Source of the DNA: Lachnospiraceae bacterium
GTDB lineage: Bacteria; Bacillota; Clostridia; Lachnospirales; Lachnospiraceae
Direction of reading: 5' to 3'
Assembly: GCA_017477005.1 (NCBI GenBank)
Contig: JAFUXY010000177.1
Location: forward strand, 1 to 11,182
DNA length: 11,182 nucleotides
Within the stretch, counting starts at the first letter, position 1. Each line of letters starts with the position of its first letter. A program made the position numbers and the translations under genes. The notes below the pieces were generated by a model. It was not told the origin of the DNA. It made no database searches and saw nothing but the letters and a program-made list of their open reading frames with translations. Positions 2,779 to 11,182 of the stretch are shown one piece after another.

Positions 2779-3903
2779 TTATACTATGCCCATCCTATCC
2801 ATAAATTCTCTTTTGTTCTTAAAAGTCGTCGTTGTTGGCCTGCCAAGCTCTGGTCTCGATCCTACCTTGCATTTGATTTCAATCAAAGACAGTCCTTGAT
2901 TTTTCTTTGCCGATTTCAGAGCCTCCATCAGTTCGTCTCTCTCTGTGATGCAGCACACTCTTGGATATCCACATGCTGCGGCTATTTTCGATATATTTAA
3001 TTTTCCCATTACTGTTGGCTGTCCTCCAACAGATTCGTGGGCACCATTGTTGATAACAATATGGATGAAATTTCGGGGATTCAAATCTGCAATCACAGGA
3101 AGCGCTCCCAAATGCATCAATGCCGCTCCATCTCCATCCACGCACCAAACGGTCTGTTCGGGCTTGTTCAAAGCGATCCCCAAAGCAATCGAACTGCAGT
3201 GTCCCATAGAGCCTACTGTCAAAAAATCAAACCCATGACTTTGTCCGCTCCTTTCTCTTGCCTCAAACAATTCCCTGCTTGCTTTTCCCGTAGTGGAAAT
3301 AATGAGATCTGTGCCTGACGCTTGAATAATACACTCGATTGCTTCCTCTCGCAATAAAGCTCCTGTCCCTTTATACAAAGAAGTTGCTCCCTCATATGAA
3401 AAAGCACCTTCACGTATGACAAAAGCCGCTTGCTTTCCATTTTTGAGCAAACTGGAATATTCCTCCATTTTATTTTTGACATCTGCTTCTGTCGTATTTT
3501 TATCCACGACCATACAAGCAATATCCATGACCTCCAACAGTTCTTTCGTGATCTGTCCCTGAAAAGCATGATGAGGCTCATCTTTGATCCCCGGCTCCCC
3601 TCTCCAGCCAATCACAAATATCACAGGTATCGCATACACTTTTTCATTCAATAAAGAGGTAATAGGATTCACGGCATTTCCTTCTCCGCTATTTTGCATA
3701 TAAACAACCGGAATTTTGCCGGTTGCCAGATGGTATCCTGCTGCAATTCCAATCGCATTCCCCTCATTGGCTGCAATAATATGCTGTTTTGTATTGATAC
3801 CATAGCTTGCGCTGATATAATCGCACATTGGCTTCAATCGGCTGTCCGGTACTCCTGTAAAAAAATCTGCGTTCAAACATTCAACAAAGCTTTCAACCTT
3901 CAT
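2779..3903 (-). CDS. Phosphonopyruvate decarboxylase
   Basis: A 374-residue thiamine diphosphate enzyme that decarboxylates phosphonopyruvate to phosphonoacetaldehyde, the irreversible step that pulls the unfavourable PEP mutase reaction forward. Visible signatures are TGVPDS (16-21), NEGNA with the cofactor-activating Glu47, the Mg/ThDP motif GDG (257-259) ending in NN (285-286), and the C-terminal SRPELGRPT typical of Ppd/AepY/Fom2 proteins. The length is normal for the family. I chose the ATG at 3903 over the in-frame ATG at 3927: it overlaps the dehydrogenase stop as ATGA and has AGGTGG four bases upstream, whereas the earlier ATG would add eight residues (MQNEKGGF) and lie inside the preceding gene. 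The enzyme is expected to be cytoplasmic. Its neighbours supply its substrate (PEP mutase) and use its product (dehydrogenase). No aminotransferase is visible. Confidence 0.93.
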   Translation of the reverse strand: MKVESFVECLNADFFTGVPDSRLKPMCDYISASYGINTKQHIIAANEGNAIGIAAGYHLATGKIPVVYMQNSGEGNAVNPITSLLNEKVYAIPVIFVIGWRGEPGIKDEPHHAFQGQITKELLEVMDIACMVVDKNTTEADVKNKMEEYSSLLKNGKQAAFVIREGAFSYEGATSLYKGTGALLREEAIECIIQASGTDLIISTTGKASRELFEARERSGQSHGFDFLTVGSMGHCSSIALGIALNKPEQTVWCVDGDGAALMHLGALPVIADLNPRNFIHIVINNGAHESVGGQPTVMGKLNISKIAAACGYPRVCCITERDELMEALKSAKKNQGLSLIEIKCKVGSRPELGRPTTTTFKNKREFMDRMGIV

Positions 3904-5012
3904 AAATCCACCTTTTTCATTTTGCAATACAAATCTTCAATATCCGCTGATTTCAACTGAATCGGATGATTGGACAATCGAATTGGATTGACAGATTTTA
4001 CCAGAAAACCTATATCTTTTTCCTGAACTGGCAGCAAGTCCAACCTGAGCGAGTGCAAAAAATCAGAAAACATCTGCGCTCCGGCCATACTATTTTCCGC
4101 ACCAAAGACCGCCCCTAGATTGTCAAATACCCCCATCAAATATTCTTTTCCCCGTTGATCCAAACACTGATCTATGTGCTCTATCATCCAAGGCCATAAT
4201 TCATTCAAGCATATCGCGGCCGCATGGCCATGTGCTATTCCATATAAACCTGTCAATTTGTAACTCATTGCATGCGCTGCCGTTGTCTGTGTAATATTGA
4301 TCGCCCTGCCTGCTGTATAAGCTGCTTTTTGTATCTCTGGAAACGTTCGACTGTCACCATCTAAATAAGATTGGCTATTTTTTAATATAATTGCAATCGC
4401 ATCTTGGGAATAGCATTGACTTTCTTCTGTACTATGTACAGACCAATAAGATTCAATTGAATGACAGAGCGCGTCCAACAAGGCCGATTTTTTTTGATAA
4501 TCTGAAACAGATTCCAACCCAGAGTGATCAAACAATACGATATTCGGAATAATCGCATCGGATGTCACAGACTGTTTGACTCCATCCTCGTATACAACTG
4601 CAAAACGAGTGGCTTCTGATCCGGATCCCGCCGTCGTCGGTATCGCCACAAAAGGAACAGAAACCATTGCCTCCGATGGAATTTCCGACAAACTGCTCCA
4701 CCCCGAAATATCATAGCCCCCATAGAGCTTGACACATTTCGCAATGTCCATAGCCGAGCCACCACCGACTGCTAAAATCATTTCATATTCATCTGCTCTG
4801 AATATTTGAATGGCATCTTTCAAGCTCTCTGTCGTCGGGTTCGGACTGAACCCACTAAATCGCTCATAATGAATGTTCTCCAACAGACGTTCTAATTTCT
4901 CCCGGTTGTATCGGAATGATGTATTTCCACAAATCAAAAAAACCTTTGAAATACCTTGTTTGTTTATACAGCTTCTCAGTTGTTCATAAGATTGAAAAAT
5001 TTTTTGCTCCAC
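3900..5012 (-). CDS. Iron-containing alcohol dehydrogenase, probable phosphonoacetaldehyde reductase
   Basis: A 370-residue group III (iron-type) alcohol dehydrogenase. The nucleotide-binding motif VGGGSAMDIAK is at about 82-92, and PTTAGSGSEAT at 125-135 is typical of the family. The expected metal ligands are Asp180, His184, His247 and His261 (ALLDALCHSIESY, TAAHAMS, GIAHGHAAA), so the enzyme looks intact. Set between a PEP mutase and a phosphonopyruvate decarboxylase, the likely reaction is NAD(P)H reduction of phosphonoacetaldehyde to 2-hydroxyethylphosphonate, as by PhpC/FomC-type enzymes. The family alone does not prove the substrate; the assignment rests on context. It starts with GTG, whose G overlaps the TAG stop of the upstream gene by one base, after AGAGGAG at eight bases spacing. 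It ends in an ATGA overlap with the decarboxylase. Expected in the cytoplasm. Confidence 0.88.
   Translation of the reverse strand: MEQKIFQSYEQLRSCINKQGISKVFLICGNTSFRYNREKLERLLENIHYERFSGFSPNPTTESLKDAIQIFRADEYEMILAVGGGSAMDIAKCVKLYGGYDISGWSSLSEIPSEAMVSVPFVAIPTTAGSGSEATRFAVVYEDGVKQSVTSDAIIPNIVLFDHSGLESVSDYQKKSALLDALCHSIESYWSVHSTEESQCYSQDAIAIILKNSQSYLDGDSRTFPEIQKAAYTAGRAINITQTTAAHAMSYKLTGLYGIAHGHAAAICLNELWPWMIEHIDQCLDQRGKEYLMGVFDNLGAVFGAENSMAGAQMFSDFLHSLRLDLLPVQEKDIGFLVKSVNPIRLSNHPIQLKSADIEDLYCKMKKVDL
3908..3913 (-). promoter_or_regulatory. Ribosome binding site that sets the decarboxylase start
   Basis: AGGTGG on the minus strand, four bases before the ATG at 3903-3901. It lies within the last codons of the dehydrogenase gene, and the ATG overlaps that gene's TGA. 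This supports translational coupling and argues against the longer start at 3927. Confidence 0.75.
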
Positions 5013-7024
5013 TATACAAACTCCTCTGGGATCAAACGAATAATTTCAGAAAAAGGCATCAACATCCCTTCACATTCCTGGGCACGATGTTCCTTCAATA
5101 TCGTTTCTGCTACCTTTTGAATGGCCGGAACCGTTGCTCGCATCAATTGATTTGCATAAATAACGATATTGACTCCCCTCTCTTTGAATTCTTCTTCTTT
5201 CACTGCATCAAAACTAGTGGGAACCACCACTATAGGCGTCATTTGATTGGTTTCCCGGAATTGTTGGACGAAATCAAATATTTCCATTGGATCCTTTTGT
5301 CGGCTGTGAATCATGATTGCGTCTGCACCAGCTTCCACAAAGCTTTTTGCCCGGAACAGCGCATCCTCCAACCCCTTTTCCAAAATCAAACTCTCTATTC
5401 TTGCACAGATCATAAATTCCTTTGTTCGCTGTGCATTTTTTCCGGCTTTTATCTTTTCGCAAAATACCGAAACGTCCTCTTGTGTCTGAGCCACCTCTGT
5501 GCCAAATAGACTGTTTTTCTTTAGTCCGGTCTTGTCTTCTATGATTACCATGGAAACTCCCATACGTTCTAACGAACGCACGGTATAAACAAAATGCTCA
5601 ACCTTCCCTCCTGTATCACCGTCAAAAATAATAGGCTTTGTGGTCACCTCCATCAAATCCTCTATCGTACGAAAACGGCTAGTCATATCTACGAGTTCGA
5701 TATCTGGCTTCCCTTTCGCGGTAGAATCACACAAACTCGACACCCACATGGCATCAAACTGATGACCACCTCCATCTTGACTGACAACCGTATTCTCAAC
5801 CACAAGTCCCGTCAATCCATCGTGTGCTTCCATCGCCGTTGCAAATCCCTTTATATCCAAGATACGTCTCAGACGACCTCTTCGTACATCCGGCATCGCA
5901 ATTTCTGTCTTCGTGCGGGCTTCGAGTTCTCGATATTTTTTGTCCGCCGCATAGGGAAATTCAATAAGTCTGCCCCCGTATCCTGCCAAAACAGAAACAA
6001 CCTCATCTCGAATAGATTTCTGAAATCCATCCTTCCAATCATCTCCATGAACCACAAAATCCGGCTTGATCTGCTCCAGATTTTCCCGATAGCTCAAATG
6101 CTTCTGCTCGACAACCCTGCTGACTCCCTTGATACAACCAAACATTTCCTTTCGATCTTCAAACGGCAAAAGAGGATATCTTTTGTAAGAAGCTATCGCT
6201 TCATCCGACAGCACTCCAACGATCAATTTTCCTAATCTTTGCGCCTTGCGGATAATCGAAATATGCCCTCCATGAAGTGTATCTGTACTAAAACACATAT
6301 ACACTATACGCCCTCCTATCTCGTGAAGCCTCGCATGCACTACCGATAAATCATTGGCATCGTCTATTTCATTACACAGACGATCTTCCACATCCAAAGG
6401 CACTATATTGCACTCTTCCCCTATTTCATTGAACGCCTCTTCAGCATAGCAGTTTGTATTGCCCGAATCGCAAAATGTAATAATTCGGGCCAGCCACTTT
6501 TCCCAGTCCTCCTCCAAGAGTTTGTAAAATGGCTGTGCTGCTATCGCTTCACTGAAATAATTTATCCCCACATGTGTGATTTTTTCATCTGAGACAACGG
6601 CTTTGAAATCCTTCATCGGCAGAGGAATCGTCGAGCTGACTGCCATACAGGATTTTTTTGAAAGCATCATATCGTCAAACACACTATTCTCAAATACCAA
6701 ATCTCCATGGATCAGCAATATATCACCATGGAGATATTCTCTGGCACAGTATATAGAAAAAATATAATTTGTTTCCGAATACAGTTCGTTTTTTATAAAT
6801 CGAACTTTTATCGGAAGATCCAGACTTTGAACATAATTGACCAGAACGCCTTCATGATAGCCAGTCGTCATGATTACTTCATCGATCCCATATTCCGTCA
6901 AAATATTCAACTGTCTGGAGAGAATCGTCTCTCGATTGGATATTTCTGTCATGCATTTTGGTTGATCCGAAGTCAGAACTCCCATACGGGTTCCCATCCC
7001 TGAATTTAGAATAAGTGCTTTCAT
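5012..7024 (-). CDS. Three-domain enzyme: LicC-like nucleotidyltransferase, TagD-like cytidylyltransferase, phosphoenolpyruvate mutase
   Basis: A 670-residue protein with three catalytic domains. Residues 1-232 are a LicC/sugar-nucleotidyltransferase fold: SGMGTRMG (8-15), Lys23 in QPKCM, HGDLVF (106-111) and EIDDANDL (219-226) retain the nucleotide and metal positions. Residues 238-365 are a TagD/GCT-type cytidylyltransferase with HGGH (251-254), PFEDRKEM and VHGDDWK (325-331). I do not see the usual C-terminal ISSTxI-type signature. Residues about 380-670 are PEP mutase: WVSS (427-430), FDGDTGG (D468, D470), the diagnostic EDK-x5-NS (496-505), Arg542 and His573. The mutase converts phosphoenolpyruvate to phosphonopyruvate, the entry to most C-P natural products. 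Fom1 of fosfomycin synthesis joins a cytidylyltransferase to PEP mutase and makes CMP-hydroxyethylphosphonate; this protein carries one further nucleotidyltransferase. It starts directly after the TAA of the small upstream gene, with AAGGAA six bases before the ATG. Which domain activates which substrate is unknown. Confidence 0.93.
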   Translation of the reverse strand: MKALILNSGMGTRMGVLTSDQPKCMTEISNRETILSRQLNILTEYGIDEVIMTTGYHEGVLVNYVQSLDLPIKVRFIKNELYSETNYIFSIYCAREYLHGDILLIHGDLVFENSVFDDMMLSKKSCMAVSSTIPLPMKDFKAVVSDEKITHVGINYFSEAIAAQPFYKLLEEDWEKWLARIITFCDSGNTNCYAEEAFNEIGEECNIVPLDVEDRLCNEIDDANDLSVVHARLHEIGGRIVYMCFSTDTLHGGHISIIRKAQRLGKLIVGVLSDEAIASYKRYPLLPFEDRKEMFGCIKGVSRVVEQKHLSYRENLEQIKPDFVVHGDDWKDGFQKSIRDEVVSVLAGYGGRLIEFPYAADKKYRELEARTKTEIAMPDVRRGRLRRILDIKGFATAMEAHDGLTGLVVENTVVSQDGGGHQFDAMWVSSLCDSTAKGKPDIELVDMTSRFRTIEDLMEVTTKPIIFDGDTGGKVEHFVYTVRSLERMGVSMVIIEDKTGLKKNSLFGTEVAQTQEDVSVFCEKIKAGKNAQRTKEFMICARIESLILEKGLEDALFRAKSFVEAGADAIMIHSRQKDPMEIFDFVQQFRETNQMTPIVVVPTSFDAVKEEEFKERGVNIVIYANQLMRATVPAIQKVAETILKEHRAQECEGMLMPFSEIIRLIPEEFV
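5021..5027 (-). promoter_or_regulatory. Ribosome binding site for the dehydrogenase
   Basis: AGAGGAG on the minus strand, eight bases before the GTG at 5012-5010. It lies inside the last codons of the three-domain gene, and the GTG shares a base with that gene's TAG, so the two are probably translationally coupled. Confidence 0.7.
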
Positions 7025-7240
7025 TTATTTTTCCTTATTGCTCTTTATAATAATATCATCTGTTTCGTGTTCCTTTTTATCCTTGATGCCCAATGCATCC
7101 TGTGCTTTCTTCTTTGCCTTTCTCCAATAGATTCCAACTGCTGCACCAACAGCAATCACTACTCCTGCTCCTGCCTGTATCGCATATGTCATAACAGACG
7201 GATCAATATACGCCAAATTCTTTACTGCAATAATACTCAT
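7025..7240 (-). CDS. Small single-pass membrane protein of unknown function
   Basis: I do not recognise this 71-residue protein. AAGGAG lies five bases before its ATG, and its stop abuts the next gene's start, so it is very likely a real translated gene. Residues about 18-39 form one Gly/Ala-rich membrane segment (AGAGVVIAVGAAVG) with small-residue spacing of the GxxxG kind that favours helix packing. It is followed at once by RKAKKK, so the C-terminus should face the cytoplasm. The remaining tail (46-71) is highly charged, with Lys, Glu and Asp, and probably has little structure. There is no cleavable signal peptide or lipobox. It lies between the YidC-transferase fusion and the phosphonate enzyme. 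It might be a membrane anchor or regulator for the cytoplasmic enzymes, or a client of the fused YidC; both are guesses. Confidence 0.8.
   Translation of the reverse strand: MSIIAVKNLAYIDPSVMTYAIQAGAGVVIAVGAAVGIYWRKAKKKAQDALGIKDKKEHETDDIIIKSNKEK
7031..7036 (-). promoter_or_regulatory. Ribosome binding site for the three-domain enzyme
   Basis: AAGGAA on the minus strand, six bases before the ATG at 7024-7022. It lies in the last codons of the 71-residue gene, whose TAA directly abuts the ATG. Confidence 0.6.
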
Positions 7241-7245
7241 AATGT

Positions 7246-7251
7246 CTCCTT
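7246..7251 (-). promoter_or_regulatory. Ribosome binding site for the small membrane protein
   Basis: AAGGAG on the minus strand, five bases before the ATG at 7240-7238. It lies in the 41-base gap after the YidC-transferase gene, the widest gap in the window. I see no hairpin terminator or promoter in that gap. Confidence 0.75.
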
Positions 7252-7281
7252 TTCTTCAAGTCATTTTTTACAATGCCAACC

Positions 7282-9171
7282 TTATTTTCGACTATTTATA
7301 ATTTCCTGAAGTTCTTGTATTATATATTCTCCTCCCACTTCTGCGCTATGATCCAGATTATATACATAGTCTTGGGCATATTGCTTAATGCTTTCTCTGT
7401 ACTGTGGAATACTATTCATCACCTCCTCTGTCACATTTGCAATCTTAGGCACTTCTTCTTTTTTTACAACTTTTCCCAAAACATCCCTCATCCATATATT
7501 AAATGGTTCCGTATCAATCCTTTGGTATTCCGGATTCATAATCTTCATAGGTGTATCAATAAAGATCACAGGTCTATATGTCGCAAACGAATACTCATAG
7601 GCTATACCAGACCAATCCGTAATCATCAAATCTGCTTCATATACTGTGTTGTTCAAAGAAAAATCTGTCTGTATTTCTATGTTTTCATTATTTTCATATT
7701 GCCTTTTTAGAAACTCCATGCGCTCGGGTTGATGACGAACGTGCTGAGGATGCGGTCTGACAACTATATTATAATCGGTATTTTTCAAACTATCCAACAT
7801 TTCATCCAAACAACTATCCACAATATTGTCCTTCTGCCACGATGGAGCTATCAGAATTGTCTTTTTTTTGGTTTCCGCACCTTGTTTCTCCTTAAAATCT
7901 TCTCTCATATCGTCCAATAGACTATACCCCCATTGAACCAACTTTCTTTTGGGAAGCTGATATGCCTCCTCTGTTTTCAAAGCCTCCTCCACTTGATGCT
8001 TCCCTGTGCAAAAAACGGTATCGAAATGATCCGTCGATCCTTTTCGCATTGTAAGATTCAGGGAGCACATGCTATGCGGGATAAAGATGTAATCAATATC
8101 CTTTTTTATATAACTTCGCTTGATATGATAATTCTCCAAATCCGGCATAGTCATAACTACTATATCCGCTTCCATTTTCATCATTAGCGTGATCAATTTG
8201 TTTTCACCAATATAATATGGCTTGATCTGCTGCTTGGTCCTGCTCAACTCAAATATCTGATCTTGGGGATCACTGGTAATGTAATGGATCGTGACATTCG
8301 TATTATCCAAAATATACTCAATTATTCCCTTGAAATATTTATAAAACCCACTGCTCTCTGAATAAAAGACGAGATGTTTGTTTTCAATAGAAAAAAACCG
8401 TTTATAATCCGCTTTCTCTCGGCGTTTATCTTCACGGCTTCTCTTTTTACCCTGATCGACCGATTTCAGCTCCTCTAACTCCTTCTTCGTTTTTTCAAGT
8501 TCTTCTTCGTCCACATAATCCATCGGATCAAGTACTTTGTTCAATATCCATTGCTGTATCATTGAAAAGAGATTGCTTGCCACCCAGTACAAGGCTACTC
8601 CACCAGGCACATACCAGCCCAAAATCAACGAAATACCTACAGAAAGACCCATCGTAAAATACTGCATTCCTTTGCTTTGCTCAGCCTGCAAGATATTGCT
8701 TTTATTTTGTGAAATGGAAAGCATCAGTGATGACAAACCCGCAGCCAGTGGAGAAATAATGTATACCCCTTTGTTTACATACGGCAATACACTCAGATCC
8801 AATCCCAGAAACCATATATTGTAAGTCCCCTTAGCGATCGTTTCTCTGACTGCACCTATTAATCCCAATAAAATTATAATCTGAATCAATGTAGGAACAA
8901 CCGTAATAAACGGATTGTAGCCATGCTCCTTGTAAAGTTTCTGTTGCTCTTCTGCTATTGTTTCAGCATCTCCATAATGATGAATTTTGATCTTATTCAA
9001 CTCTGGAGTCATACTGACAATTTTAATGGAATTTTTTTGAAGCCACAAACTCAATGGAAACAATACGATTTTACTTAAAAGCGTAAATAATATAATTGCT
9101 CCACCGAAATTGTTACAAATATGGTAGCACAAATCTAGAATTATACCAAAAAACAAGTTAATCGAATTCAT
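7282..9171 (-). CDS. YidC/Oxa1 insertase fused to a CDP-glycerol glycerophosphotransferase-like domain
   Basis: A single open frame of 629 residues joins two families. Residues 1-215 match the YidC/Oxa1/SpoIIIJ core: an ILFTLLSKIVLFPL helix with a positive residue (Lys34) where YidC has its groove Arg, the MTPELNKIK cytoplasmic hairpin, the EHGYNPF loop, LGLDLS, and the hallmark PGGVALYWVASNLFSMIQQ (189-207). There is no lipoprotein signal. Residues 216-260 are a charged linker, first acidic (EEELEKTKKELEEL) then basic. Residues about 262-629 are a TagB/TagF-like transferase: His366 in IPHSMCS, YDxx-type HFDTVFCTG (382-390), VRPHP (His474) and TDWSG (518-522). The usual HG at the first histidine is HS here, which suggests a divergent subfamily. 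The start has GAGG seven bases upstream and lies 13 bases after the preceding stop. The natural substrate of either half is unknown; the transferase should sit on the inner face of the membrane. Confidence 0.93.
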   Translation of the reverse strand: MNSINLFFGIILDLCYHICNNFGGAIILFTLLSKIVLFPLSLWLQKNSIKIVSMTPELNKIKIHHYGDAETIAEEQQKLYKEHGYNPFITVVPTLIQIIILLGLIGAVRETIAKGTYNIWFLGLDLSVLPYVNKGVYIISPLAAGLSSLMLSISQNKSNILQAEQSKGMQYFTMGLSVGISLILGWYVPGGVALYWVASNLFSMIQQWILNKVLDPMDYVDEEELEKTKKELEELKSVDQGKKRSREDKRREKADYKRFFSIENKHLVFYSESSGFYKYFKGIIEYILDNTNVTIHYITSDPQDQIFELSRTKQQIKPYYIGENKLITLMMKMEADIVVMTMPDLENYHIKRSYIKKDIDYIFIPHSMCSLNLTMRKGSTDHFDTVFCTGKHQVEEALKTEEAYQLPKRKLVQWGYSLLDDMREDFKEKQGAETKKKTILIAPSWQKDNIVDSCLDEMLDSLKNTDYNIVVRPHPQHVRHQPERMEFLKRQYENNENIEIQTDFSLNNTVYEADLMITDWSGIAYEYSFATYRPVIFIDTPMKIMNPEYQRIDTEPFNIWMRDVLGKVVKKEEVPKIANVTEEVMNSIPQYRESIKQYAQDYVYNLDHSAEVGGEYIIQELQEIINSRK

Positions 9172-9184: not shown

Positions 9185-11182
9185 CTATTTATCAATCTTC
9201 ATTGAGATCAGCCAAAAGGTGGTTGTTCTATTTAACAACTCCTCGTCCATCTGTTCATCCGGTATCGTCGGAAACTCAAATTCTAATGCGAGGACTTTTG
9301 ACGTATCGAAAGAATTGACATCTATGTCAAAAGATATCCCCCTCCCTATTGCTTTGTCATCTATATTATCATGCTTAACCTCTTTCCCATTTGCCTTTAT
9401 TATATATTCCAGACCACGCTTCGTAAGACTATGTAAACGAATGTTTGCATTTAAAGTCCCTGTTTTGGGCAAATCATAAAAGGGTATCTCCATTTTTGCG
9501 TAAGCTCCACGCAATCTCGTAGAAAAACCACTATTTTCAGCAAAACCTTCAACCGCATATCGATTACCTGTTGTATCTGAGTCAAAACGTAAAACAGTGC
9601 CAAGAGAATAGGGAACTTCTGAGCCATCTATATCTTTATACGATTTTATTTCTCTTAATGCGTCTGTATCCCAAGCATCTTCTGTAGTCACATATTCCAC
9701 TATTTCATAGTCTGCTTTTCTTACACCGGCATTATAGAAAAAATGTCTCTCTCTTTTCTCTCCTTCCTTTAGGGAGTGGATATCCTCTCCATATTTATTC
9801 ATTGTATCCTCTTCACCAGTGAGATGTTCTAGAAATACTGGCAAATCGAACAAGGAAACAGATTCTCTTTTGGTTTGATATTTTCCTATACTGTTTTTTT
9901 CTTTTATAAGAAATATAGGGCGTTCTGCTAGATTGATATCCCCATGATCTGCTGTTATAATCACGGTCGTCTTATCATAAATACCCTTTTCTTTTAAATC
10001 CTTCAACATTTCTGCTATTCTTGTAAAATTCCCTGCAACCTGTGATTCTACTGTCGCTCCATTACCGACATCTCCATTATTTAGCATTCGATAAGGTTTG
10101 TGAGCCCCACGCAAATGATATATTCGGACTGACTTTTTCCCATCTCCAATCGTGAAGCGTTGCTCTCTAAAGTCATTATAAAAAGCAGTATCACTGGTAG
10201 AATTCATCGCATATGTTTCCGCTTTGTCTATCGCCTCATCAAACTCTGATGTATCCATCAGAAAATATTTTTTTAAATAGTGCGGGACAAATTTAAACAT
10301 CGTCAACTTGAATACCTTATTTGCAAAAAGAGTTCTTGATCCTACTTTTGCACCACCCGAATCAAAATTTGTAATATAATCTACGCACTTTTCTGAAAAC
10401 AATGGCGTCTCAGAATATAAACCTATATCATACCCGGATTTATGCATCATTGCCAACGGATTCTCGTCTCCATATATTTTGTCTTTGTATTCTGAGTACA
10501 ACTCTGAATATGTAAATGGTATACCAGAAAACATTGAGGGAACTGCGATAAACGTCCGAGCTCCACTGCCAATAACATTTTCATAGTGACTAAAACCCTC
10601 CAATTTATCTGTGTAATCTGGATTTTTAGTGATGAAATCCGAGTAATATTCTTCATCCAATGTATCTAATACAAATATAATCACATTTTCATCTCCAGAC
10701 AGTTCAAACATCCCTTGCTTAGTAATACTAAACTCAGTATTGCCATTCGGATTATAAGAAAAAATTTGAACAATGAATGCAGGGATCTGTATCACCGTAA
10801 GAAAGATACTTATATAGCTTATTACTTTATAAAATTTGTCTGTTTTGGGTTTCAGAAACTCTAATAATATAAATGGAAATGCCAAACATACTATCCAAAT
10901 TGATGTATCCAGTACACCATATCTCGTATAATGATCCCATGCTATATCTGATCCATCCAATACCCCAGAACCATAGCTGATGTTGATGTAATTCCCTTGT
11001 ATGTATAACCCTAATGCTAATCCAAATAATATTTTGTAAAATATGTATTTATTCTTTTCAGATAATACAAAAAATAAAATAAAACCCAACATTGGTATAA
11101 TAATAGATGCTGGTAACACTACAGACAAAACATCAAGTGGTCCAAACCAAAAATTTTCTGCATTTGGCAGATAAAGACTAAA
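9185..11182 (-). CDS. Membrane-bound sulfatase/LTA-synthase-like phosphotransferase (5' end outside window)
   Basis: The frame is open to the right edge, giving 665 visible residues. An internal TTG at 11128 is not a convincing start, because the upstream codons read NFWFGPLDVLSVVLP, which continue a normal membrane segment. Counting from the edge, about 19-142 contain four likely membrane helices with hydrophilic loops. About 165-460 is an extracellular alkaline-phosphatase-superfamily domain: NVIIFVLDTLD (metal Asp173), GSGARTF (candidate nucleophile Thr210), LRGAHKPY (His361) and TTVIITADHGD (Asp412, His413). LtaS uses Glu, Thr, Asp and His in comparable places, here with Asp for Glu. About 523-665 is a beta-rich C-terminal module with YAVEGFAENSG and a closing FWLISMKI strand, of a kind found attached to membrane polysaccharide enzymes. 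It probably transfers or removes phospho-alcohol groups on a surface polymer, outside the cell. The substrate cannot be read from sequence. It is the most upstream gene in view. Confidence 0.87.
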   Translation of the reverse strand, partial: FSLYLPNAENFWFGPLDVLSVVLPASIIIPMLGFILFFVLSEKNKYIFYKILFGLALGLYIQGNYINISYGSGVLDGSDIAWDHYTRYGVLDTSIWIVCLAFPFILLEFLKPKTDKFYKVISYISIFLTVIQIPAFIVQIFSYNPNGNTEFSITKQGMFELSGDENVIIFVLDTLDEEYYSDFITKNPDYTDKLEGFSHYENVIGSGARTFIAVPSMFSGIPFTYSELYSEYKDKIYGDENPLAMMHKSGYDIGLYSETPLFSEKCVDYITNFDSGGAKVGSRTLFANKVFKLTMFKFVPHYLKKYFLMDTSEFDEAIDKAETYAMNSTSDTAFYNDFREQRFTIGDGKKSVRIYHLRGAHKPYRMLNNGDVGNGATVESQVAGNFTRIAEMLKDLKEKGIYDKTTVIITADHGDINLAERPIFLIKEKNSIGKYQTKRESVSLFDLPVFLEHLTGEEDTMNKYGEDIHSLKEGEKRERHFFYNAGVRKADYEIVEYVTTEDAWDTDALREIKSYKDIDGSEVPYSLGTVLRFDSDTTGNRYAVEGFAENSGFSTRLRGAYAKMEIPFYDLPKTGTLNANIRLHSLTKRGLEYIIKANGKEVKHDNIDDKAIGRGISFDIDVNSFDTSKVLALEFEFPTIPDEQMDEELLNRTTTFWLISMKIDK

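Follow-up and report, generated by a model that had tools for sequence, protein, structure and literature searches.

Insertases of the YidC/Oxa1/Alb3 superfamily (PF02096, TIGR03592) share a core fold, an LYW..N motif and a positive residue in the first membrane span. For E. coli YidC, yeast Oxa1 and Get1, a preprint reports lipid scrambling in vitro, which in simulations runs along the insertion groove (PMC10491306). The CDP-glycerol and CDP-ribitol transferases TagF, TarF and TarL (PF04464) have a GT-B fold with invariant histidine motifs, while LtaS, GacH and the EptA/PptA transferases share a fold class and an Asp/Thr/His/Asp-His pattern. In the Lic-1 (LicA, LicC, LicD) and PntC phosphonate pathways, choline- or ethanolamine-like head groups are activated with CDP or CMP. 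PMC10434233 contrasts two routes, CDP-choline used with LicD and a lipid donor used with an alkaline-phosphatase-type enzyme, and phosphatidylcholine is proposed there as the lipid donor of PptA; GacH takes its group from phosphatidylglycerol (PMC12282279). Here we describe a locus on an 11,182-nucleotide stretch of a Lachnospiraceae genome (contig JAFUXY010000177.1, hereafter the window) that encodes a YidC-like domain (Y), a TagF-like domain (T), an LTA-synthase-type outer enzyme (S) and a small "YIDP" membrane protein (D). Comparison with related genomes shows an exchange of enzyme partners by Y and D and provides good support for the association of the four parts.

Positions 7,282-9,171 (reverse strand, as for all features of the window given below) form an uninterrupted 629-aa frame joining a YidC/Oxa1 core to a TagF-like transferase. 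The Y half comprises residues 1-222 (8,506-9,171; Lys34 codon at 9,070-9,072), a charged linker spans residues 223-258 (8,398-8,505), and the T half extends over residues 259-629 plus the stop codon (7,282-8,397), with H366 and R472-P-H-P475. Residues 23-212 match the Pfam family 60KD_IMP (PF02096) with 113.3 bits (cut-off 35), residues 261-603 match Glyphos_transf (PF04464) with 50.6 bits (cut-off 22.1), and the chain scores above the cut-off of the YidC/Oxa1 model TIGR03592 (110.2 bits, cut-off 84.3). The original prediction of YidC and TagF-like halves in one frame is thus borne out, and the YidC hallmark PGGVALYWVASNLF, Lys34 and the charged linker that it listed are all present. In an AlphaFold model (pTM 0.69, mean pLDDT 89.5) the YidC fold is kept in Y, and the linker is mostly helical, with helices at residues 222-240 and 246-261. 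The length of this linker is steady: the columns of residues 212 and 258 are 40-50 residues apart in 64 of 64 aligned rows.

In order to determine how widespread the fusion is, we searched GTDB-species genomes with exact peptide words, so that the 66 loci returned are a sample and not the full set. Counts over these loci come from related genomes and do not represent independent events. Both halves lie in one ORF in 63 of the 66 related loci, including L040, whose frame breaks late in T, and L064, which is truncated at the 5' end; in the other three (L049, L065 and L066) the contig ends inside the gene. The fusion is therefore not an assembly artefact, and relatives do not always encode the halves as separate genes, the case that would have undermined the original prediction. 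A fusion by chance or by assembly was ruled out by the 63 fused loci, some of which belong to named strains not labelled as MAGs (R. inulinivorans DSM 16841, Lachnospiraceae A4 and G41, NK3D112 and Ruminococcus FC2018). The record titles name Lachnospiraceae, Erysipelotrichaceae, Oscillospiraceae, Eggerthellaceae and some "Saccharibacteria", and many carriers of the enzyme set come from animal guts. The loci titled Candidatus Saccharibacteria (L009-L012, L014, L018 and L049) encode fusions 54-57% identical to that of the window, as close to it as many Lachnospiraceae records, which makes their naming or binning doubtful. A literature search, with subscription papers largely outside its scope, returned no title or abstract beginning suggestive of a Y-T fusion, a YidC-sulfatase fusion or D.

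Across 64 aligned fusions (the window's plus 63), K34, P56, P93, Q97, S181, Y195, W196 and N200 are invariant in Y, and H366, R472-P-H474-P475 and S444-W445 are invariant in T. A second alignment of 62 fusions gave the same result for K34, Q97, S181, Y195, W196 and N200 of Y and for H366 and R472-P-H474-P475 of T. The original claim that Lys34 is retained (64 of 64 fusions) and the view that the groove is under constraint both hold.

The fold of T was compared with known structures. Its best Foldseek match is TagF (E 1.4e-11), and the highest Z score, 21.9, was obtained with TagF 3l7m_A (rmsd 5.2, 339 residues aligned); GT-B epimerases score within 1 Z of TagF, and identities over the structural alignments are only about 13-18%. 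H366 and H474 presumably correspond to the catalytic histidines of TagF, and the His and RPHP motifs are also invariant in seven unfused relatives of T. The Pfam family and the TagF-type fold could indicate that T is a teichoic-acid-type glycerophosphate transferase whose vicinity to phosphonate genes is incidental, and a neighbour in L010 is a cytidylyltransferase like the glycerol-3-phosphate type, below the cut-off (103 bits of 165). However, the fusion is matched by neither the TarF nor the TarL model of NCBIfam (NF041712, NF041713), the recurring neighbours are phosphonate, PLP-enzyme or choline-kinase sets, and unfused T is also found inside phosphonate operons (L078, L141, L143). The model results and the recurring sets weaken the teichoic polymerase reading of T, which we consider very improbable. 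The wall-polymer role initially assigned to the C-terminal half has thus lost ground, the neighbours indicating phosphonate, phosphoethanolamine or phosphocholine donors instead, and a teichoic role of the fusion is not supported. In comparison with TagF, TarF and TarL, T is distinguished by its low identity, by neighbours that supply other activated alcohols and by its fusion to Y or D. A second, longer Glyphos_transf protein of 917 aa is encoded at positions 1-2,751 (PF04464, 169 bits), its 3' end open at the contig end. This protein is matched by NF041712 and NF041713 below cut-off; over the 63 fusion loci its profile exceeded 60 bits in one gene only (L053), and it is not conserved near other fusions. 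Its membership of the set is uncertain.

Downstream of the fusion, the window carries a phosphonate biosynthesis operon in which both PEP mutase and phosphonopyruvate decarboxylase (PPD) score above cut-off. A 670-aa chain (5,012-7,024) combines NTP transferase, cytidylyltransferase-like and PEP mutase domains (PF12804, PF01467, PF13714) and scores 397 bits with TIGR02320 (cut-off 319.6); PPD (2,779-3,927) scores 463 bits with TIGR03297 (cut-off 312.5). Between them lies an iron alcohol dehydrogenase (Fe-ADH; 3,900-5,012, PF00465), for which no NCBIfam model scored above cut-off. It occupies the place of PhnW in other phosphonate loci and is probably a phosphonoacetaldehyde reductase. In Rice et al. 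(PMC6697681), chains in which PEP mutase is fused to both nucleotidyltransferase domains, like that of the window, make up 2.9% of PEP mutases. We observed this three-domain chain beside Fe-ADH, not PhnW, in the window, in L063 and in L103.

Within 8 kb of the 63 fusions we found an NTP nucleotidyltransferase in 38 loci, a CobD-like PLP enzyme in 17, PEP mutase in 11, PPD in 11, PhnW in 10 and Fe-ADH in 4, that of L048 being on the other strand and outside a phosphonate locus. The PEP mutase noticed beside the fusion in the original prediction is therefore a recurrent neighbour. No PEP mutase, CobD-like enzyme, NTP transferase or CTP transferase was found within 8 kb in 20 of the 63 loci, many of which have short flanks. 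An NTP transferase is the only such match in 14 loci, and in some of these it may be an ordinary sugar nucleotidyltransferase. The neighbours form sets of three interchangeable kinds. The first is a phosphonate set, with PEP mutase and PPD followed by PhnW, giving an amino product, or by Fe-ADH, probably giving a hydroxy product. The second consists of an NTP transferase with a CobD/HisC-like PLP enzyme, often in a single chain; these PLP enzymes score below equivalog cut-offs (188 of 291 bits for CobD in L004, 236 of 277 for HisC in L010), and we infer a phosphoserine-decarboxylase-like route to phosphoethanolamine. A variant is the 848-aa chain of L038 (8,027-10,570, +), in which an NTP transferase is joined to a PLP aminotransferase-type domain and a methyltransferase; it might supply methylated ethanolamine or choline donors. 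In the third set, an NTP transferase and a choline/ethanolamine kinase share one chain, often with a winged-helix start. Single chains with a winged helix, an NTP transferase and a choline/ethanolamine kinase or APH domain were observed in L044 (5,763-7,517), L050 (8,093-9,964), L101 (2,925-4,703), L106 (7,515-9,284) and similar loci; it is odd for a Lic-type enzyme to carry a DNA-binding domain. The common thread of the three sets would be a CMP- or CDP-activated two-carbon head group. The neighbours thus appear to make CMP/CDP-activated phosphonates, phosphoethanolamine or phosphocholine, and the head group in the window's genome is probably hydroxyethylphosphonate. Unlike in Lic-1, T lies beside these genes, where it may take the place of LicD, and S is added; the combination of T and S would join the two routes set apart in PMC10434233.

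S is encoded 13 bp upstream of the fusion (9,185-11,182), its 5' end being cut by the contig end. It is an LtaS/sulfatase-type membrane enzyme of the alkaline-phosphatase superfamily (PF00884, 33.2 bits, cut-off 25), with three hydrophobic segments predicted from hydropathy. In 26 S proteins D155, H343, D394 and H395 are invariant, and T192 is present in 90% or more. A fold search retrieved YejM, LtaS and sulfatases, which places S at the superfamily level only, and the confidence of its model is modest; NCBIfam gave no family for the window's S, and its sequence had only weak matches among solved structures in the PDB (best E 0.012). The LTA-synthase-like gene of the original prediction is a frequent neighbour: S lies on the same strand within 300 bp of the fusion in 29 of 63 loci (26 when only the 51 loci flanked by over 1,500 bases at both ends are counted), and 40 of the 63 have it within 8 kb. 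In the 8 genomes checked there are 1-6 PF00884 matches per genome, with a profile that misses some S, e.g. in G108. In contrast to LtaS, GacH and EptA/PptA, S occurs together with T, Y and D, and some relatives have it joined to a YidC domain.

A frame absent from the original prediction follows 41 bp downstream of the fusion, ahead of the PEP-mutase gene. It encodes D (7,025-7,240), a 71-aa protein with the motif YIDPSVMTYAIQ, one hydrophobic segment by hydropathy and a basic tail. A pattern search detected D in 57 of 63 fusion loci. In 40 of these it is a free gene on the strand of the fusion, no more than 150 bp away; in 11 it forms the N-terminus of a nearby S; and in 6 it lies further away or on the other strand. 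Thus 51 of the 63 loci have D either next to the fusion or at the beginning of a neighbouring S. A profile recovered one more, in L046, and D was not found in five loci, two with short upstream flanks (L033, L047) and three whose flanks are not short (L041, L048, L056). Free D are mostly 60-150 aa long. None of the 7 D proteins submitted to Pfam and NCBIfam reached a family cut-off, and D would be a new small protein family. Among the D, free or on S, with an N-terminal extension, Ala precedes the motif in 48 of 51, a sequence feature that resembles a signal-peptidase site. In 200 genomes of the family, an A-type D query (E <= 1e-4) matched 10 of 10 genomes carrying Y-T, with D on another contig in G152, and 1 of 190 others, where the match is 40 residues with a stop (Fisher 5e-16, kinship of the genomes ignored). 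These figures concern A-type D, since the query misses the D-like start of the T described below. No D match was detected on the Y chains (64 Y-T and 14 Y-S). D is thus a concrete candidate partner of Y.

The window exemplifies what we call arrangement A, in which Y is fused to T, and D is free or fused to S. In arrangement B the partners are swapped, giving D-T and Y-S. In locus L077 of a relative, for example, a 935-aa protein (5,581-8,385, -) joins a YidC core to a sulfatase domain, shows several hydrophobic segments when read by eye, and overlaps an unfused T. Y-S fusions amount to 14 proteins in 11 of the 200 family genomes, a set with about one genome per genus. The T profile matched 19 of these 200 genomes, with Y-T in 10 and unfused T in 10, both being present in G027. 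YidC and T were confirmed in one frame in each of the 10 Y-T genomes, that of G217 being cut at the contig end. Each of the 10 genomes that have unfused T also belongs to the 11 with Y-S (hypergeometric 5e-16, kinship ignored), and no full Y-S was found in the 10 Y-T genomes checked. In a phylum-wide set, T occurs in 6 of 398 genomes: G458 and G523 have unfused T with Y-S, G593 has Y-T, G517 contains a fragment only, and the distant G573 is an exception, with T, a sulfatase and a phosphonate operon and with neither a fused Y nor a clear D. We read 16 arrangement-B regions. Unfused T overlaps Y-S or lies within about 50 bp of it in 11 of them and about 6 kb away in L141; none was found near Y-S in L104 (contig end), L107, L108 and L111. 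Four Y-S regions of G009 and G216 have no adjoining T. A D-like start is present on 12 of 12 unfused T in the regions read, and the unfused T of L078 and L079 also begin with a D-like segment. The same kinds of neighbours recur in arrangement B: L103 has PEP mutase, Fe-ADH and PPD, the same enzyme types as the window, L141 and L143 have PEP mutase with PhnW, L102 has an NTP-CobD protein, and L101 and L106 have choline-kinase fusions. Seven of the 16 regions show none of these neighbour sets and no NTP gene.

Because Y is attached either to the inside enzyme or to the outside enzyme, this looks like a working link across the membrane and not a chance fusion. Moreover, since Y and D carry different enzymes, which are exchanged between the D-S form of arrangement A and arrangement B, they would be the two halves of a connector. 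This bears on the proposal, made in the original prediction, that Y is a membrane anchor. Y as a mere anchor or scaffold that places T at the membrane next to S would make sense for a soluble GT-B enzyme, which needs membrane placement, and for a linker that is short and of steady length. However, an anchor would hardly account for the six Y residues invariant in both alignments, and unfused T bears a D segment in place of Y, which moves to S. Since S has hydrophobic segments of its own, anchoring is unlikely as the whole story, and we regard this reading as quite improbable.

We then considered the groove of Y. In an alignment with B. halodurans YidC, K34 falls on an arginine (chain position 48), which we take to be the groove residue R72. 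In the Y of arrangement B, the same position is Asn in 14 of 14 proteins; the groove chemistry thus differs between the two arrangements. The YidC equivalog models of NCBIfam that matched the fusion all did so far below cut-off, e.g. 85 of 479 bits for NF002357 and 67 of 377 bits for the SpoIIIJ model NF002803. Positions N47, Q155, N156, N159 and Q162, which are near-fixed and polar in the Y-T family, vary in 21 housekeeping YidC of relatives, and at the K34 position these have Tyr in 6, Asn in 2, Arg in 10 and Lys in 3. The window's genome (76.4% complete) encodes on another contig a 422-aa housekeeping-type YidC, which rules out the fusion as the sole YidC of a YidC-less genome. This protein (L001, G000:C17) and 5 of 20 from relatives have Tyr at the K34 position, most others having Arg or Lys.

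The strongest rival to a crossing role is that Y serves as an insertase dedicated to D (or D-S, D-T), a client of the sort that YidC handles alone, since such clients are typically small membrane proteins (PMC7618853). The size of free D and the single hydrophobic segment of the window's D would fit, as would the way D tracks Y-T across genomes with no D match on the Y chain, and the insertase fold and K34 kept in Y. On the other hand, a housekeeping-type YidC is already present in the window's genome, the signal-peptide-like start of many D (Ala in 48 of 51) suggests a Sec route for these proteins, the groove charge is gone in arrangement B, and the fusion of Y to T or S is left unexplained. 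We therefore consider this explanation unlikely. A lipid path and a dedicated inserter, two uses put forward for the insertase half at the outset, may both be retained as readings of Y.

Taking these data together, we give an even chance to a model of a four-part membrane system, with the fusion as its inner half, by which a small phospho- or phosphono-alcohol is attached to a surface glycan. Cytosolic enzymes, judging from the neighbours, would make the CMP- or CDP-activated head group, and T on the inner face would move this group off its nucleotide and onto a lipid or polyprenyl acceptor. Y, with its Oxa1-superfamily groove, would together with D let the lipid-linked head group cross the membrane, presumably outwards, and S outside would pass it from the lipid to the glycan, as its family suggests. 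A lipid-linked intermediate made by T is the simplest join, since the set combines nucleotide activation inside with an S-type enzyme that by family acts outside. Y belongs to the same superfamily as the insertases for which the preprint reports in vitro scrambling (PMC10491306); there the activity is described for insertases generally, whereas for Y scrambling would be the job. The kept YidC fold and K34 would be in agreement with such a crossing role. As a tentative proposal, somewhat short of an even chance, a YidC-family domain would have turned from protein insertion to the passage of lipid-linked head groups, Y and D forming a portable two-piece connector that couples an inner and an outer transferase and is wired both ways, as Y-T/D-S and as D-T/Y-S. 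Against the four-part model stand the loss of K34 in arrangement B, genome G573, the 20 of 63 loci with no activation gene found within 8 kb, the Y-S regions of G009 and G216 that lack T, a LicD gene on another contig of the window's genome, and the fold search with S, which resolves the superfamily only. T could act on the glycan directly, and the donor of S could be ordinary phosphatidylglycerol.

We know of no settled natural use of lipid scrambling by insertases. If the model is true, the locus provides a well-defined example, open to testing, of an insertase put to new use as a passage for lipids or head groups, and a transfer route for phosphonate, perhaps also phosphoethanolamine or choline, decorations in Lachnospiraceae and their relatives. 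At this locus an insertase domain is coupled to enzymes of the envelope that, judging by their families, work on opposite sides of the membrane.

Finally, we compared the YidC domains in a tree built from 24 of the 64 arrangement-A rows, with no outgroup and with long branches. Y of arrangement A, Y of arrangement B and the housekeeping proteins each fall on one side of a branch (support 99, 100 and 83, respectively), L112 being assigned to none of the groups; with three groups and no outgroup, their order is uninformative on one versus two origins of the fusions. The YidC domains of Y-T form their own clade apart from the 21 housekeeping YidC of relatives. Y thus differs from the YidC/Oxa1/Alb3 insertases as a separate clade, linked to envelope genes, whose fusion partner is a TagF-like transferase or, in arrangement B, a sulfatase-type enzyme. 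The L112 protein (907-2,451, -), from genome G117, a family-level relative of the window's genome, is a YidC with the periplasmic domain PF14849.
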